Shown here one piece after another: positions 46 to 43,250 of a DNA stretch of 64,000 nucleotides. The notes under the pieces are model-generated. The model saw only the letters and a list, made by a program, of their open reading frames with translations. It had not been told where the DNA came from and searched no databases. The position numbers and the translations under genes were made by a program. Source of the DNA: Siccirubricoccus phaeus (GTDB lineage Bacteria > Pseudomonadota > Alphaproteobacteria > Acetobacterales > Acetobacteraceae); the NCBI RefSeq assembly GCF_008360935.1, contig NZ_SRXO01000029.1, positions 1 to 64,000 on the forward strand. Direction: 5' to 3'. Positions within the stretch are counted from its first letter, which is position 1. Each line of letters opens with the position of its first letter.

Positions 46-1020
46 TCAATCCGCGCTGGCGCCGGAGATCTTCACGATCTCGGCCCAGCGCGGCAACTCG
101 GCGCGGATGAAATCGGCGAATTGCTCCGGCGTGTTGGGGGCCGGCTCGCTGCCCTGCTCGGCCAGCTTCTGCCGCACCGTCTCGTCTCGCAGCGCCGCCA
201 GCAGCTCGGCCGAGAGCCGCTGGATCGCCGCCTGCGGCGTGCCGGCGGGGGCGACGAGGCCGTTCCAGAGAGCGACCTCGAAGCCCGGCAGGGTCTCTGC
301 CACCGTCGGCACCTCCGGCAGGGCCGGGCTGCGCTGCTTCGTCGTCACCGCGATGGGGCGGAGCTGCCCGGCCTTCACCGCGCCCAGCACCTCGATCATC
401 GGCGAGGCGATCATCTGGATCTTGCCGGCGATGAGGTCGGTCGCCGCCGGCGCGCCGCCGCGATAGGGGATGTGCACCATCTCCACCCCCGCCCGCGCGG
501 CGAAGAGCGAGGCGGCCATGTGCAGCGAGGTGCCGGCGCCGGCGCTGCCGAAATTCACTTGGCCCGGTCGCGCCCTGGCATAGGCGATCAGCTCCGCCGT
601 GCTGCGCACCGGCACTTCCGGATTCACCACGATGAGGTTCGGGATGAACGCCACCTGGCCGATCGGCGCGAAATCCTTCAGCGGGTCGAAGGGCAGGCTG
701 CGGTAGAGCGCCTTGTTCGCTGCCATGACGCCGCTGGTGACCAGGTGGATCGTCAGGCCATCCGGCGCGGCGCGGGCGGTCGCCTCGGCGGCGATGTTGC
801 CGGCGGCGCCGGGGCGGTTCTCCACCACCACCGGCTGGCCCAGCCGCTCCCCGAGCGCCTGGGCGACCAGCCGGGCGGTGAGGTCGGTGCTGCCGCCGGC
901 GGCGAAGCCGACGATGAGGCGGATGGGCTTGTCCGGCGCCCAGGCCTGCGCCCGCGCCGCCCCATGCACCGCGGCCAGCGGCAGGGCGGCGAGGCCGGCC
1001 AGAAGATGGCGTCTGTTCAT
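46..1020 (-). CDS. Bug/TctC family tripartite tricarboxylate transporter substrate-binding protein
   Basis: A 324-residue periplasmic solute receptor. The N-terminus (MNRRHLLAGLAALPLA...ARAQ) is a signal peptide with a twin-arginine-like start and an A-x-A cleavage site near residue 25. The mature part shows the Bug family hallmarks: an Rxx-GF-GGSTD loop near residues 33-48, ENRPGAAGN near 66-74, and an IPYRGG motif near 184. The family binds carboxylates and other small organic acids. No TctA/TctB membrane genes lie nearby, as is usual for orphan Bug genes. The two TPP-enzyme genes upstream on the same strand may share its substrate, but the ligand cannot be read from sequence. Confidence 0.93.
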   Translation of the reverse strand: MNRRHLLAGLAALPLAAVHGAARAQAWAPDKPIRLIVGFAAGGSTDLTARLVAQALGERLGQPVVVENRPGAAGNIAAEATARAAPDGLTIHLVTSGVMAANKALYRSLPFDPLKDFAPIGQVAFIPNLIVVNPEVPVRSTAELIAYARARPGQVNFGSAGAGTSLHMAASLFAARAGVEMVHIPYRGGAPAATDLIAGKIQMIASPMIEVLGAVKAGQLRPIAVTTKQRSPALPEVPTVAETLPGFEVALWNGLVAPAGTPQAAIQRLSAELLAALRDETVRQKLAEQGSEPAPNTPEQFADFIRAELPRWAEIVKISGASAD

Positions 1021-1082
1021 GTTGTTGTTTCCTCCCCCTTGACCTTCCGACGGCGGCCGGCCCCAGCGCTGCCCGTTGCCCT

Positions 1083-1174
1083 GAAGCGGCTTTGCCGCCT
1101 CAGGCTGTGCGAGAATTGGGGAGCCCAGCGACTCCCGGGGCCCCCGCGGCGTCGCGTAGCGACGTCGTGGGGAT
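1083..1174 (-). ncRNA. Three-hairpin 3' element, copy 1
   Basis: In minus-strand orientation the element starts right after the TAG stop of the TPP-enzyme beta gene with ATCCCC. It has a first hairpin (CCCC...GTCGC-TAC-GCGAC...GGGG), a GC-rich second hairpin around GGGGCCCCGGG, the linker CTCGCACAGC, and a third hairpin of the form GGCGGC-AAA-GCCGC. The same layout recurs at 6615-6709, 15698-15793 and 43025-43120 behind unrelated genes. Probable role is a terminator or stable mRNA end; this is an inference. Confidence 0.7.
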
Positions 1175-1786
1175 CTATTGCAGGTGCGCGGCCTTGCCGA
1201 GGATGGCCTCGCGCATCCGGGCCTGCAGGATGCTCGCCTCGCGCGGCGGCAGGACCAGGGGCTCGGAGCTCTCGTCGATCTTCACCTGGGCAAACAGCGG
1301 CCCGGCGCCGGCGTGGATCGCGGCCCGCAGCGCCGCCACCTCCTCCGGCTGCGTCACCAGGCGGGTATCGGCGATGCCGGCGCCCTTCGCCATGGTGGCG
1401 AGATCGACGCCATGGCGCGTCGCCGTCTCCTGCATCCCGGTCTCGCCGTAATGCTCATTGTCCAGCACGATGATGGCGAGGTTGCGCGGCTGCTTCACCC
1501 CGATGGTGGCGAGGCTGCCGATGCCCATCAGCATCTCCCCATCGCCGGTGATGACGGCCACCGGCCGGTCCGGCTGCGCCAGGGCGAGGCCGAGGCCCAT
1601 CATGGCGGCGCCGCCCATGCCGCCCCAGAGGGGCATGTTCTCCGGCACGTCGCCGGCGGCGGTGATGTCCCAGGCCGGGGCGCCGAGGCCGCCGATGGCC
1701 AGCAGCTTGCCGCGATCGGCGAGCAGCGCCTTCACCAGGTCGCGCCGCTTCATCCTGCCGCTGGCGCCGAGGGGGATATCGGTCAT
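1175..1786 (-). CDS. TPP-dependent decarboxylase, beta (pyrophosphate-binding) subunit
   Basis: A 203-residue subunit resembling the ComE/phosphonopyruvate-decarboxylase beta chain. It carries the TPP/Mg signature GDG (about residue 80) followed about 27 residues later by LDNEHYGETG. That corresponds to the C-terminal TPP domain of acetolactate-synthase-like enzymes. The partner alpha subunit lies 4 nt upstream, so the two are co-translated and together should form one active site. Likely reaction is non-oxidative decarboxylation of a 2-oxo acid such as sulfopyruvate or phosphonopyruvate. The precise substrate is unknown, because no sulfolactate or phosphonate genes sit nearby. Confidence 0.85.
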   Translation of the reverse strand: MTDIPLGASGRMKRRDLVKALLADRGKLLAIGGLGAPAWDITAAGDVPENMPLWGGMGGAAMMGLGLALAQPDRPVAVITGDGEMLMGIGSLATIGVKQPRNLAIIVLDNEHYGETGMQETATRHGVDLATMAKGAGIADTRLVTQPEEVAALRAAIHAGAGPLFAQVKIDESSEPLVLPPREASILQARMREAILGKAAHLQ

Positions 1787-5191: not shown

Positions 5192-5293
5192 AGCCTGATC
5201 GGTTGAGGTCGAATCGACCGAAACCGTGAATCACGCGACCGAACAATGAGCTAGAGCCGGGCGGGTGAGCGCAGCTCAACCGATCCCGCTCTA
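5189..5293 (-). repeat. TAGAGC element, 105-bp class, copy 1
   Basis: A 105-bp element bounded by TAGAGC and GCTCTA with matching inner arms (GATCGGTTGAG / CTCAACCGATC). It is the reverse complement of the copies at 36776-36880 and 39372-39476, which have the same length. Its end supplies the TAG stop codon of arfB. An internal CTAGAG lies mid-element. It resembles a short non-autonomous element or REP-like unit; no transposase is linked to it here. Confidence 0.85.
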
Positions 5294-5368
5294 GCTAGGC
5301 CCCTCCGGGGCGTTCCGCCCGGCGCGACAATGCGCGCTCGGCTGCGTCGAGCGCACCCCAAGCCACAG

Positions 5369-6429: not shown

Positions 6430-6614
6430 GGGCGATGCTCCCCTCTGATCCCCGGCATATGCGGTTGCCCTCGCGACCTCGCCAGGGTTCCCGCCGCGGG
6501 GAATTTTTTACCGATCGGCGTCAGGCACCCGGCCAATCCCCGATCCGCCATGCGCCTTTCCGGCCACCAAACCCGTCGGGCCCTCGGCGCCCCCGCACAA
6601 CCGGACCGCCCGCT

Positions 6615-6709
6615 GCATGGCGCGGCTTCGCCGCGCCATGCTGTGCGAGGCGCTGCTCACCCAGCGCCCCGGGGTCCCATGGCGTTGCGCAGCAACGTCA
6701 CGGGGAATG
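6615..6709 (-). ncRNA. Three-hairpin 3' element, copy 2
   Basis: It begins a few bases after the TAG stop of the SDR gene (minus orientation). Hairpin 1 pairs CCCCGTGACGTTGC with GCAACGCCATGGG-type bases. A CCCCGGGG core is followed by the linker CTCGCACAGC and by hairpin 3, GCATGGCGCGGC-gaa-GCCGCGCCATGC. The last stem is perfect over 12 bp. See 1083-1174 for the shared layout. Confidence 0.7.
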
Positions 6710-15598: not shown

Positions 15599-15697
15599 GG
15601 AAGGGCTCAGCCCTCCTCTCACCTTGGGCGCAGCGCGTCCAACCCCGTGAGAACCCTGGGGTTTGGCGCGGCATCATTCCGGGCGGTGCCCGAAGTC

Positions 15698-15793
15698 CTT
15701 CCGCGGCTTTGCCGCGGAAGGCCGTGCGAGGCCCCGGGGCATGAAGCGATAGCCGGGGCCCCCATGAGGCTGCGCCAGCAGCTTCATGGGGAT
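15698..15793 (-). ncRNA. Three-hairpin 3' element, copy 3
   Basis: It overlaps the end of the hydrolase gene: the last codons (TCC CCA TGA) are the first arm of hairpin 1, which pairs CCCCATGA-AGCTGCT with AGC-CTCATGGGG. Then come a CCCCGG...CCGGGGC hairpin, the linker CTCGCACGGC, and hairpin 3, CTTCCGCGGC-aaa-GCCGCGGAAG, a perfect 10-bp stem. See 1083-1174. Confidence 0.72.
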
Positions 15794-16650
15794 TTGACGA
15801 AGGCCAGCAGATCCGCGTTGATCTGATCCGCGTGGGTCGTCGCCATGCCATGCGGCAGCCCCGGATAGGTCTTCAGCGTGCCCTTCCGCAGCAGCGGCGC
15901 GGAGAGCCGGGCGGAGGCGCCGATCGGCACGATCTGGTCGTCCTCGCCATGCAGCACCAGCGTCGGCACCTCGATCTTCTTCAGGTCTTCCGTGAAGTCG
16001 GTCTCGGAGAAGGCCTTGATGCAGTCGTAATGCGCCTTGGCGCTGCCCATCATGCCCTGGCGCCACCAATTGTCGACGACGCCGGGGATGGTCTCCACGC
16101 CCGGCCGGTTGAAGCCGTAGAAGGGCCCCGCCGGCACGTCGCGGAAGAACTGCGCCCGGTTGGCCGCCAGCGTCTTGCGGAAGCCGTCGAACACCTCGAT
16201 GGGCAGGCCGCCCGGATTCTTTTCCGACTTCACCATCACCGGCGGCACGGCGCCGATCAGCACCGCCTTCGCCACCCTGCCGCCGCCGCCATATTGCGCG
16301 ACATAGCGCGCCACCTCGCCGCCGCCGGTGGAATGGCCGATATGGATGGCGTCCTTCAGGTTCAGCTTCAGCGCCAGCTCCGCCACATCCGCGGCGTAGG
16401 TATCCATCTCATTGCCCGTATAGGACTGGCTGGAGCGGCCATGGCCCCGCCGGTCATGCGCGATGACGCGGTAGCCCTGCGCCAGGAAGAACAGCATCTG
16501 GGCGTCCCAGTCATCGGCGGAGAGGGGCCAGCCATGGTGGAAGACGATCGGCTGCCCGCTGCCCCAATCCTTGTAGAAGATCTTCGTCCCGTCCCGGGTG
16601 ACGACGTAGCCGTCGCCGGTGCGGTCGGCGGGGATGGAAGGCTCGCTCAT
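15784..16650 (-). CDS. Alpha/beta hydrolase, non-heme haloperoxidase-like
   Basis: A 288-residue alpha/beta hydrolase close to cofactor-free chloroperoxidases and arylesterases. [12 protein letters not shown] (about 38-49) provides the oxyanion region and Ser107 in GHSTGG the nucleophile. The Asp in [10 protein letters not shown] (about 232-241) and the His in GLPHGM (about 265-270) complete the triad. No signal peptide is present. It is divergent from an OhrR/MarR-type regulator. The shared 160-bp gap holds TTATC half-site palindromes, so it is probably a target of that peroxide-sensing repressor. The stop codon lies inside a three-hairpin 3' element. Confidence 0.93.
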
Positions 16651-28679: not shown

Positions 28680-28813
28680 GCGCTGGCCGGCGGCGCGCAT
28701 TGGGGGGATCTGCCGCGGCGGGAGGGGCTGGCGCAGCCGCGGCACCCCCGCCGGGCGCCGGCGGAGATGGCGCGCCCCGGCCGCCGCCCGGATCGGCGAG
28801 GAGGCTGGCCGCC

Positions 28814-28864
28814 TAGAGCAGATCGCCGGAGGGCGGCATCGCCTGGAGGCGTGAATCTGCTCTA
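28814..28864 (+). repeat. TAGAGC element, 51-bp class, copy 1
   Basis: Exactly 51 bp from TAGAGCAGATCGCC to GAATCTGCTCTA. The 10-bp ends are inverted repeats (TAGAGCAGAT / ATCTGCTCTA with one shift). Identical-length copies in opposite orientation lie at 53624-53674 and 63652-63702. It is followed at once by a transposase relic. Confidence 0.85.
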
Positions 28865-28865
28865 G

Positions 28866-34039: not shown

Positions 34040-34217
34040 CGCTTGTTGACGGCAGCCACCCCCCTCGCCGGGACCGGCCCTTGGCTTCCCGCGGGTATGC
34101 AGGTTGAACCTTCGGGTCTGAAACTCGGACCGGGGTCCGGGGCCAGGTCCTGGCCCCGGCGGGGGTGCAGGGGGCAGCGCCCCCTGCCGGGGGGCATGGG
34201 GGCAGAGCCCCCATCAC
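34040..34217 (-). repeat. GC-rich 3' element (CCCCGGACCCCGG class), copy 3
   Basis: In minus orientation it starts at the TAG stop of the MFS gene: GGGGGCTCTGCCCCC, then GGGGGCGCTGCCCCC, then CCGGGGCCAGGACCTGGCCCCGG and ACCCCGG, GAGTTT and GGTTCAACC. Each of the first three blocks is a perfect or near-perfect hairpin. This is one of the fullest copies. Confidence 0.65.
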
Positions 34218-39347: not shown

Positions 39348-39371
39348 AATTTGCTCGCTTGAACAATGCCC

Positions 39372-39476
39372 TAGAGCGGGATCGGTTGAGCTGCGCTCAC
39401 CCGCCCCGCTCTAGCTCATTGTTCGATCGCGTGATTCACGGTTTCGGTCGATTCGACCTCAACCGATCACGCTCCA
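39372..39476 (+). repeat. TAGAGC element, 105-bp class, copy 3
   Basis: 105 bp from TAGAGCGGGATCGG to CGATCACGCTCCA. It differs from 36776-36880 at only a handful of positions, so these two copies diverged recently. It is wedged between the hairpin behind the dmlA-like gene and a GC-rich 3' element. Confidence 0.88.
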
Positions 39477-39479
39477 GGG

Positions 39480-39723
39480 GCTCCGCCCCATAGGCGCGAG
39501 GTTGCGCAATGAAGGGATGAAGTCGGCCCGGTGAGGATGGGGGCTTCGGCCCCAAAAGCCCCGGCAGAGGGCGCTGCCCTCTGCATTCTCGCCGGGGGGA
39601 AGTCGTGAGTCGGCAGGTTGAACCCGCGAGGCACAAAACTCCCGCCGGGGTCCGGGGAGGCGCGTTGTCGGCAGTGCCGGCAACCCCCGGCGGGGGTTCG
39701 GGGGCAAAGCCCCCGATCTTCCT
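39480..39723 (-). repeat. GC-rich 3' element (CCCCGGACCCCGG class), copy 4
   Basis: In minus orientation, right after the kinase stop: GGGGGCTTTGCCCCC, then CCCCCGCCGGGGG, then GTTGCCGGCACTGCCGACAAC, CCCCGGACCCCGG, GAGTTTT and GGTTCAACC. A second set of hairpins (GAGGGCGCTGCCCTC, GGGGCTTCGGCCCC, GGGGCTCCGCCCC) follows. It fills the whole gap up to the TAGAGC element. Confidence 0.65.
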
Positions 39724-42046: not shown

Positions 42047-43027
42047 ATGCAACGCCGAGCCCTGTTCGCCACGCCGCTGCTTGCCGCGCCGCTGCTGCGC
42101 GGCCGGCCTGCCCGGGGGCAAAGCTGGCCGGACCGGCCCATCACCATGGTGGTGCCCTTCGCCCCGGGCGGCAGCCCGGACATCGCCGCCCGCATCCTGG
42201 CGCCGCGCATGAGCGAGCTGCTCGGCCAGCCGGTGGCGGTGGAGAACCGCAGCGGGGCGGGGTCCACCATCGGCACCCGCAGCGTCATCCAGGCGCGGCC
42301 GGACGGCAACACGGTGCTGATGGGCAGCATCAGCATCATGATGGCGCCGCTGACCATGGACCCGGTGCCCTTCGACACCGCGGCCTCGCTCCGCGCCATC
42401 TCCCTGCTGGCGACGGTGCCCTACATCCTAGTGGTGCGGGCGGATGCGCCGCCGAAAAACCTGGCCGAATTCCATGCCTGGGCCAAGGCCAACGGGGCGA
42501 AGCTGAATTACGGCTCCTCCGGCAACGGCACGCCGCTGCATATGGGGGGTGCGCTCTACTCGCTGATGATGGGGGTGGAGCTGACGCATATCGCCTATCG
42601 CGGCACCGGCCCGGCCATGGCGGATCTGCTGGCCGGGCAGGTGCAGATGGTGTTCGGCGACCTGCCGGGGGTGATGCCGCATATCCGCTCCGGCGCGGTG
42701 CGGCCGCTCGCCTCCCTGGTGAAGCACGAGGTGCCGGAGCTGCCCGGGGTGCCGCCGATGGCGGGGAGCGATCCGAAGCTGGCGGCGTACGAGGTCTATA
42801 CCTGGGTGCTGCTCTCCGGCCCCAAGGCGACGCCGGATGTGCCGGTGCAGAGGCTGCATGCGGCGATGGTGACGGCGGCGCGGGACCCGGCGCTGGCGCC
42901 GCGGCTGGCCGAGCTGGGCTTCGTGCCCTCGCTGAACAGCCCGCCGGAGGCGGATGCCTTCCTGGCCGCCGAGCAGGCGAAATGGAGCGACATCATCCGG
43001 CGGGCGGGGATCCGGGCGGAACTTTAA
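42047..43027 (+). CDS. Bug/TctC family solute-binding protein
   Basis: A 326-residue Bug receptor. The signal peptide (MQRRALFATPLLAAPLL) starts at 42047 with AGGATGCC-type ribosome-binding sequence just upstream. Hallmarks are PITMVVPFAPGGSPDIAAR (in part, 31-49), ENRSGAGS (about 66-73), YGSSGNGTPLHMGG and HIAYRGTGPAMADLLAGQVQ (in part). It is divergent from the HWE kinase gene. No TctAB genes are nearby. The TAA stop leads straight into a three-hairpin 3' element. Confidence 0.93.
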   Translation: MQRRALFATPLLAAPLLRGRPARGQSWPDRPITMVVPFAPGGSPDIAARILAPRMSELLGQPVAVENRSGAGSTIGTRSVIQARPDGNTVLMGSISIMMAPLTMDPVPFDTAASLRAISLLATVPYILVVRADAPPKNLAEFHAWAKANGAKLNYGSSGNGTPLHMGGALYSLMMGVELTHIAYRGTGPAMADLLAGQVQMVFGDLPGVMPHIRSGAVRPLASLVKHEVPELPGVPPMAGSDPKLAAYEVYTWVLLSGPKATPDVPVQRLHAAMVTAARDPALAPRLAELGFVPSLNSPPEADAFLAAEQAKWSDIIRRAGIRAEL

Positions 43028-43120
43028 TCCCCCGAAACCGCTGCGCGGCTTTGTGGGGGGCCGGATTCGCCCGATCCTCGAGGACTCGCGCAGCCTGCCG
43101 CGGCAAACCCGCGGAAGGGC
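43025..43120 (+). ncRNA. Three-hairpin 3' element, copy 4
   Basis: It starts in the TAA stop of the Bug gene. Hairpin 1 pairs CCCCCGAAACCGC with GCGGCTTTGTGGGGG almost fully. A weaker GGCCGGATTCG...CGATCC hairpin follows. The linker is CTCGCGCAGC, and hairpin 3 is CCGCGG-caaac-CCGCGG. This is the only plus-strand copy, which shows that the element follows gene orientation. Confidence 0.72.
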
Positions 43121-43250
43121 AACGGGTGGCGTCCGTCCTGCCGGCCTTTGCCGGTGGGGCGAAAAAATGCGCGGGGGTGTCACGCCGGGCGGGGCTGCCT
43201 CGTCCTGGGGGCAAGCGGCGAGGATGCCGCCCAACCGAAGGACCAGTGCC

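Follow-up and report, generated by a model that had tools for sequence, protein, structure and literature searches.

The MIRU repeats of mycobacteria are dispersed, overlap stop codons in the orientation of the gene and carry small open reading frames (ORFs) between the genes of an operon, and REPs are repeats linked to a RAYT transposase. REPs have been described as single palindromes of 20–40 bp with a GTAG or CGTC end tag, the CGTC repeats being missing in Acetobacteraceae (PMC3733652); they are reported often to lie less than 20 bp past the ends of ORFs and sometimes to provide the stop codon (PMC3733652, PMC12306157). Br-REP1 and Br-REP2 of Bradyrhizobium are reported as alphaproteobacterial 3′-UTR repeats with about 200 sites, and Br-REP1 can sit inside a three-palindrome element (PMC5082802). 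Intrinsic terminators with weak or no U-tracts, described in G+C-rich bacteria (Streptomyces), are very stable G+C hairpins at message ends, with few Us and with covariation in their consensus (PMC12207403).

The window, a 64,000-nt stretch of Siccirubricoccus phaeus DNA, contains copies of an element of a related kind: a sequence of approximately 105 nt, made up of two conserved hairpins, a linker and a tail, that stands in sense right after the stop codons of unrelated genes. Its closest described relatives in kind are the stop-proximal, REP-like 3′-UTR repeats, of which it is an orientation-locked composite variant. As a non-coding hairpin RNA it differs from the MIRUs with their small ORFs. 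Like REPs and BIMEs it is high-copy, hairpin-forming and intergenic; unlike the REPs as published, which are single tagged palindromes, it combines two covarying hairpins with a linker and a tail, is locked in sense and starts with TCCCC. Br-REP1 and Br-REP2 have another consensus, and their description in PMC5082802, in the parts dealing with the repeats, mentions neither a rule for the distance from the stop nor a fixed orientation nor a test of covariation. The Streptomyces terminators are presented as convergent, unrelated hairpins (PMC12207403), whereas the element is one homologous, dispersed family starting at the stop. Stop-proximal high-copy hairpin repeats are known as a kind from the accounts cited (PMC3733652, PMC5082802); no report of this family was found in the open-access literature searched.

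An earlier note on this DNA had placed four copies behind four unrelated genes. These copies are homologous and lie where and on the strands that had been given; all were recovered at 90–107 bits by a covariance model, R1, built from an alignment of 11 copies with the four window copies among them, and the next match in the window scored 25.4 bits (Table 1). The location of each copy was given correctly, but its true 3′ end lies 8–13 nt farther, in a conserved tail. Pfam assignments bear out the diversity of the host genes, which encode a TPP-enzyme C-terminal domain, an SDR, an alpha/beta hydrolase and a TctC (Bug) receptor. In the hydrolase copy, hairpin 1 (CCCCATGA) provides the gene's own stop, as it does in a class of 4 of the 159 copies examined in the genome.

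Table 1. Copies of the element in the window and their parts (minus-strand parts are given in reading direction).
Feature	Position	Strand	Remarks
Copy 1	43025..43128	+	R1 90.2 bits; behind TctC/Bug receptor gene 42146-43027, stop TAA 43025-43027
Copy 1, hairpin 1	43029..43059	+	from sequence reading and family covariation
Copy 1, conserved linker CTCGCGCAGC	43085..43094	+	
Copy 1, hairpin 3	43094..43119	+	single stem mismatch; loop side AAACCC
Copy 1, conserved 3′ tail	43120..43129	+	
Copy 2	1070..1175	-	R1 106.7 bits; behind TPP-enzyme C-terminal gene, stop TAG 1177-1175
Copy 2, hairpin 1	1172-1142	-	
Copy 2, linker	1113-1104	-	
Copy 2, hairpin 3	1104-1080	-	
Copy 3	6607..6708	-	R1 90.5 bits; behind SDR gene, stop TAG 6712-6710
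Copy 3, hairpin 1	6705-6675	-	
Copy 3, linker	6649-6640	-	
Copy 3, hairpin 3	6641-6615	-	
Copy 4	15687..15794	-	R1 96.1 bits; overlaps end of hydrolase gene
Copy 4, hairpin 1	15791-15760	-	contains stop TGA 15786-15784
Copy 4, linker	15730-15721	-	
Copy 4, hairpin 3	15721-15697	-	

The search of this and related genomes that had been proposed as a check returned at least 150 dispersed R1 matches in the 6.55-Mb genome, together with matches in 14 of 200 genomes of the family Acetobacteraceae. From the stretches around the matches in the window's own genome, 159 distinct copies remained for examination after removal of 4 + 4 duplicates. As aligned from 4 and from 11 copies, the element starts with TCCCC and continues with hairpin 1 (approximately 14 bp, loop TGC), a variable middle, a linker of consensus CTCGCACAGC and hairpin 3 (an 11-bp G+C stem with an AAA or GAA loop), and is closed at its 3′ end by a tail of type CAACGGGCGG. 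Linker and tail are conserved about as strongly as the stems; the unpaired linker had been recognized from the four copies, the tail beyond hairpin 3 had not. Some full copies (L052 3021, L060 3068, L075 5827, L057 3055 and L129 4687) have directly before them a second, partial version of their 5′ end (TCCCCATGAC-type, about 14–18 nt), a duplication that could have arisen by slippage or repeated insertion.

Genes were called with a codon-usage caller written for the analysis. The upstream gene lies on the same strand as the element in 153 of the 159 copies, on the opposite strand in 5 and is uncalled in 1, so that the orientation proposed always to follow the gene does so in all four window copies but not in every genome copy. 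Measured from the stop, hairpin 1 has its first C most often at 2 nt (35 copies) and at 1–6 nt in 96 of 159; the same C falls at −8..+9 nt of the co-oriented stop in 107 of 159, a nearness to ORF 3′ ends shared with REPs. Another 5′ module comes first in 34 copies, starting within about 8 nt of the stop (scored with a loose pattern), an unrelated palindrome lies between stop and element in 7, no explanation is at hand for 5, and the remaining 6 lack co-orientation or a called gene. If copies were scattered uniformly at random over this intergenic space, 47.6% would be co-oriented and 4.5% would fall in the −8..+9 window; the random placement that would have spoken against the earlier note was therefore not what was found. 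Twenty-three hairpin-1 modules outside the model matches, located by a scan stricter than the loose pattern (one place, L026, is also listed as L040), are all co-oriented; 19 begin no more than 10 nt from the stop and 20 precede a full copy.

Surroundings were compared with gene ends lacking the element, among which the last four duplicate-row ends were counted in the comparisons of gaps, convergence and folding and in the clustering of other repeats. Once the element is subtracted, the gap between co-directional neighbours measures 38 nt at the 10th percentile and 146 at the median, compared with −4 and 83 at ends without it, so the element avoids tight operon joints. A convergent gene follows at 41 of 121 ends with the element (34%) and at 152 of 471 without (32%), which is no enrichment. 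Three of the five opposite copies (L004 1505, L138 3073 and L162 3086) start just past both the start codon and a Shine-Dalgarno-like sequence of an opposite-strand gene. The gene for the Rho termination factor itself carries a copy behind its stop, and in Siccirubricoccus soli the copy at its ortholog (98.6% identical) lies 172 nt after the stop (L006 1504-1608; L133 5025-5127).

Selection on RNA structure, read originally from four copies, is supported far beyond them. Hairpin 1, anchored by its loop in 134 of 159 copies, pairs at 87.2% of positions, versus at most 79.7% when right arms are swapped among copies; the figures for hairpin 3 (127 of 159 copies) are 94.1% and at most 86.8%. In a structure-free test of 130 copies scoring 70 or more, 8 of the 9 top covarying column pairs fall in register within hairpin 1 or hairpin 3; the remaining pair is an adjacent-register neighbour. 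Sixty distinct copies from other genomes show two-sided changes in 18 of 25 pairs, with 125 compensated cells against a mean of 45 after shuffling and at most 25 in slid versions; this alignment was fitted to the model and is biased toward structure, a bias from which the 130-copy test is free. Ortholog pairs (16, two of them lacking a hairpin 1 anchor) give a mixed picture. Hairpin 1, in 14 pairs, shows 21 two-sided compensated positions, 9 one-sided changes that keep pairing, 36 positions with pairing lost in one partner and 6 unpaired in both; hairpin 3, in 16 pairs, shows 16, 2 and 20 of the first three kinds, some of these losses resembling anchor errors of the script. The claim of covariation accordingly rests on the arm-swap, structure-free and other-genome tests, in which compensatory changes exceed the controls, contrary to the second outcome named as refuting.

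The element had been described as having three hairpins; the first and third covary, but the middle one is variable and gained no covariation support in the 130-copy test, which rules it out as a conserved part. A pseudoknot between the hairpin 1 loop (GCTGCGC) and the linker (GCRCAGC), which is nearly complementary to it, is likewise rejected, as it is not represented among the top covarying pairs and the commoner linker base mismatches. So is a long-range pairing, considered by eye, of the tail with GCCCC 3′ of hairpin 1, which showed no covariation in the same test.

Gene ends without the element also tend to fold after the stop. At 244 such ends with a gap of at least 120 nt, the mean folding z is −1.20 at +0..45 and −0.59 at +70..115, strongest directly after the stop, and TTTT occurs within 90 nt at 31 of the 244. 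By eye, several orthologs lacking the element have unrelated G+C hairpins without a U-tract directly after the stop, and many have no obvious post-stop hairpin. The element is one among several kinds of U-less stop-adjacent hairpin in these genomes. TTTT lies within −20..+40 of the element's own end in only 3 of 159 copies; the earlier suggestion of a terminator class is not supported in the sense of a classical intrinsic terminator.

A role in 3′-end formation or protection is the most likely explanation; the alternatives to be taken seriously are translation control and neutral spread. We put at just under an even chance the reading that the element is a dispersed, sense-oriented mRNA 3′-end module, serving U-less end formation and/or 3′ protection and spread by copying; the element is probably the tail end of its host genes' mRNAs. 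Transcription would continue across it to complete the message, hairpin 1 would close behind the terminating ribosome, and hairpin 3, with about 11 G+C-rich bp, would set or guard the final 3′ end. It could do so by signalling termination without Us, or by forming a barrier that halts 3′-to-5′ exonucleases once termination, Rho-dependent or other, has taken place. Inverted copies would fold strongly too, so the orientation lock requires a feature of the sense strand or an oriented insertion; linker and tail would be the most probable place for a protein or RNA partner to bind. Copying within the genome would have spread the family, which may have been retained where it replaced an ordinary 3′-end hairpin.

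This reading is favoured by the sense, stop-adjacent placement, the structure, the conserved linker and tail, the recurrence of the rule in relatives, the folding found after stops in general, the other U-less G+C hairpins seen by eye at the same place in some orthologs and the avoidance of tight joints. Counting against it are the missing U-tract, the five opposite copies, the many orthologs without an obvious hairpin and the lack of convergent-gene enrichment, which strong terminators might show. The short distance from stop to hairpin also counts against it, as most termination signals of Escherichia coli are reported to lie 25–75 nt after the stop (PMC12207403). A bolder form of the 3′-end reading, possible but doubtful, holds that these are portable mRNA 3′ ends: a dedicated factor would read the single-stranded linker, and the module, copied in sense behind unrelated stops, would take over termination or 3′ protection from U-less hairpins and so provide a few per cent of genes with one standard, interchangeable 3′ end.

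The same placement could reflect stop-proximal translational control, in which hairpin 1, no more than about 15 nt from the stop, would slow the terminating ribosome, block post-termination scanning or trigger mRNA cleavage and rescue, the 3′ hairpin being secondary. Ribosome stalling has been reported for E. coli REPs that lie within 15 nt of a stop (PMC12306157, PMC5082802), and the position of hairpin 1 in 107 of 159 copies, the 2-nt peak with its 1–6 nt majority and the extra hairpin-1 modules that also begin at the stop all suit such a role. It would, however, need no hairpin 3, linker or tail, yet these parts, 65–105 nt away, are conserved like hairpin 1, and the host genes are unrelated; we consider it unlikely.

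R1 matches in the family fall in 6 of 102 genera, Siccirubricoccus and Belnapia among them, and a pattern scan of named genomes gave matches in S. soli, Belnapia mucosa, B. moabensis and Belnapia sp. F-4-1. Of the 289 genomes in a class sample, the own genome alone matched (0 of 288 others, at least 3 of which are family members; weak matches may have been lost to the stricter filters applied there). Among the best 150 candidates per genome, matches with E <= 1e-5 numbered at least 149 in G001, at least 149 in G026 and 108 in G137, then 19 each in G002, G062 and G120, 13 in G070, 12 in G146 and 1 in G017. One weak 36-nt DNA match was seen outside the family, in G059.

The placement rule repeats in these relatives. 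Among 59 copies, a non-random set of best matches and one pattern scan (65 matches minus one incomplete and five duplicates), 53 of the 56 with a called upstream gene are co-oriented and 3 more are uncalled; in 40 of 59 the stop is no more than 8 nt away. Thirteen of 53 upstream genes elsewhere have a close homolog (at least 80% identical, one partly covered) among the own copy-bearing genes, 3 of them in other genera; with approximately 160 of some 6,000 genes carrying the element, 1–2 of 53 would be expected by chance. Turnover at individual genes is seen as well. Of three window genes checked in S. soli, the SDR ortholog has the element behind it and the hydrolase and Bug genes do not; there the element stands behind the hydrolase's convergent neighbour, where the own genome has a different hairpin. 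The SDR ortholog in G002 is without it. Among 30 orthologs each of two shared genes, the element was seen by eye behind 3 of 30 both times, and in G026 an inverted copy behind one shared gene is the copy of the convergent neighbour.

Random pairs of copies are 68% identical and the nearest paralog is at most 90% identical, a divergence by which the copies are judged to be old, and most orthologous copies resemble each other no more than randomly paired copies do. Among the 159 copies, the orthologous one of 13 shared pairs took rank 3 and rank 11 in two cases and ranks from 33 to 124 in the other eleven, so that most shared positions cannot be identified by sequence as the same insertion, and identity fails as proof of descent there. 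Two S. soli positions, at the SDR and an S24 peptidase, retain rare hairpin-3 stems.

A selfish repeat without host function, which inserts or survives only behind stops where it does little harm and takes its orientation from oriented insertion, would explain why carriers have anything between 1 and at least 150 copies, why sister species may or may not have the element at the same gene, and why tandem 5′ modules and partial 5′ duplications occur. It is nevertheless improbable. Stems have stayed paired although the copies are old, the consensus has no terminal inverted repeats of the MITE type visible by eye, and the Y1_Tnp (RAYT-type) transposase was found in 0 of 10 genomes (9 carriers, 6 genera; the control was positive in 5 of 14 named genomes). 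The absence of this transposase from the genomes searched, together with the element's length and its lack of a GTAG or CGTC tag, also leads us to reject a REP/RAYT system. Moreover, a CTAG-ended, palindrome-rich repeat of the own genome is not stop-locked, only 5 of its 62 strand-wise matches being close to the end of an upstream gene, so the stop rule is not shared by every repeat of a compact genome.

Small RNAs released from 3′ UTRs and acting in trans through the conserved linker are a most improbable explanation: the unpaired linker and tail are conserved and Bradyrhizobium 3′-UTR repeats are reported to coincide with sRNA reads (PMC5082802), but a trans-acting RNA would not require closeness to so many stops, and a relation to Rfam is rejected, since Rfam 15 gave no match in the window at the gathering score and only weak sub-threshold matches (E up to 10) for the best-scoring copy.

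Transcript ends in very G+C-rich Alphaproteobacteria are, in our assessment, poorly mapped. The family offers a natural series of about 150 homologous 3′-end elements on unrelated genes in one genome, and since sister species differ at the same genes, what stop-adjacent hairpins do can be put to a direct test. It further provides a clear-cut example of a repeat tied to gene orientation and stop codons although the transposase usual for REPs is missing, and a new RNA family could be defined from its covariance model.

Other hairpins were noted in these genomes. A second repeat family consists of palindromes TAGAGC...GCTCTAG (window 39371-39414, 5251-5294 and 28813-28865; L043, L069, L150, L164, L182, L188 and others); in the 7 of 159 cases with a palindrome between stop and element it is of this type, and its terminal TAG is the stop codon. 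With window 39372-39483 as a DNA query, many further copies of that sequence were found in S. soli. A third kind, of GGGGGCTCTGCCCCC type, has 42 pattern matches, 12 of them near an upstream gene end and 11 of these 12 co-oriented (window 34183-34211(-); L047 5367, L052 5331, L065 1145 and others), and is possibly another sense-biased 3′-end family. In L240, L241 and L244, from three further genomes of the family, the ortholog of the L071 SDR has, by eye, an A+T-rich hairpin, TCTTCTTTTT...AAAAAGAAG, shortly after the stop.
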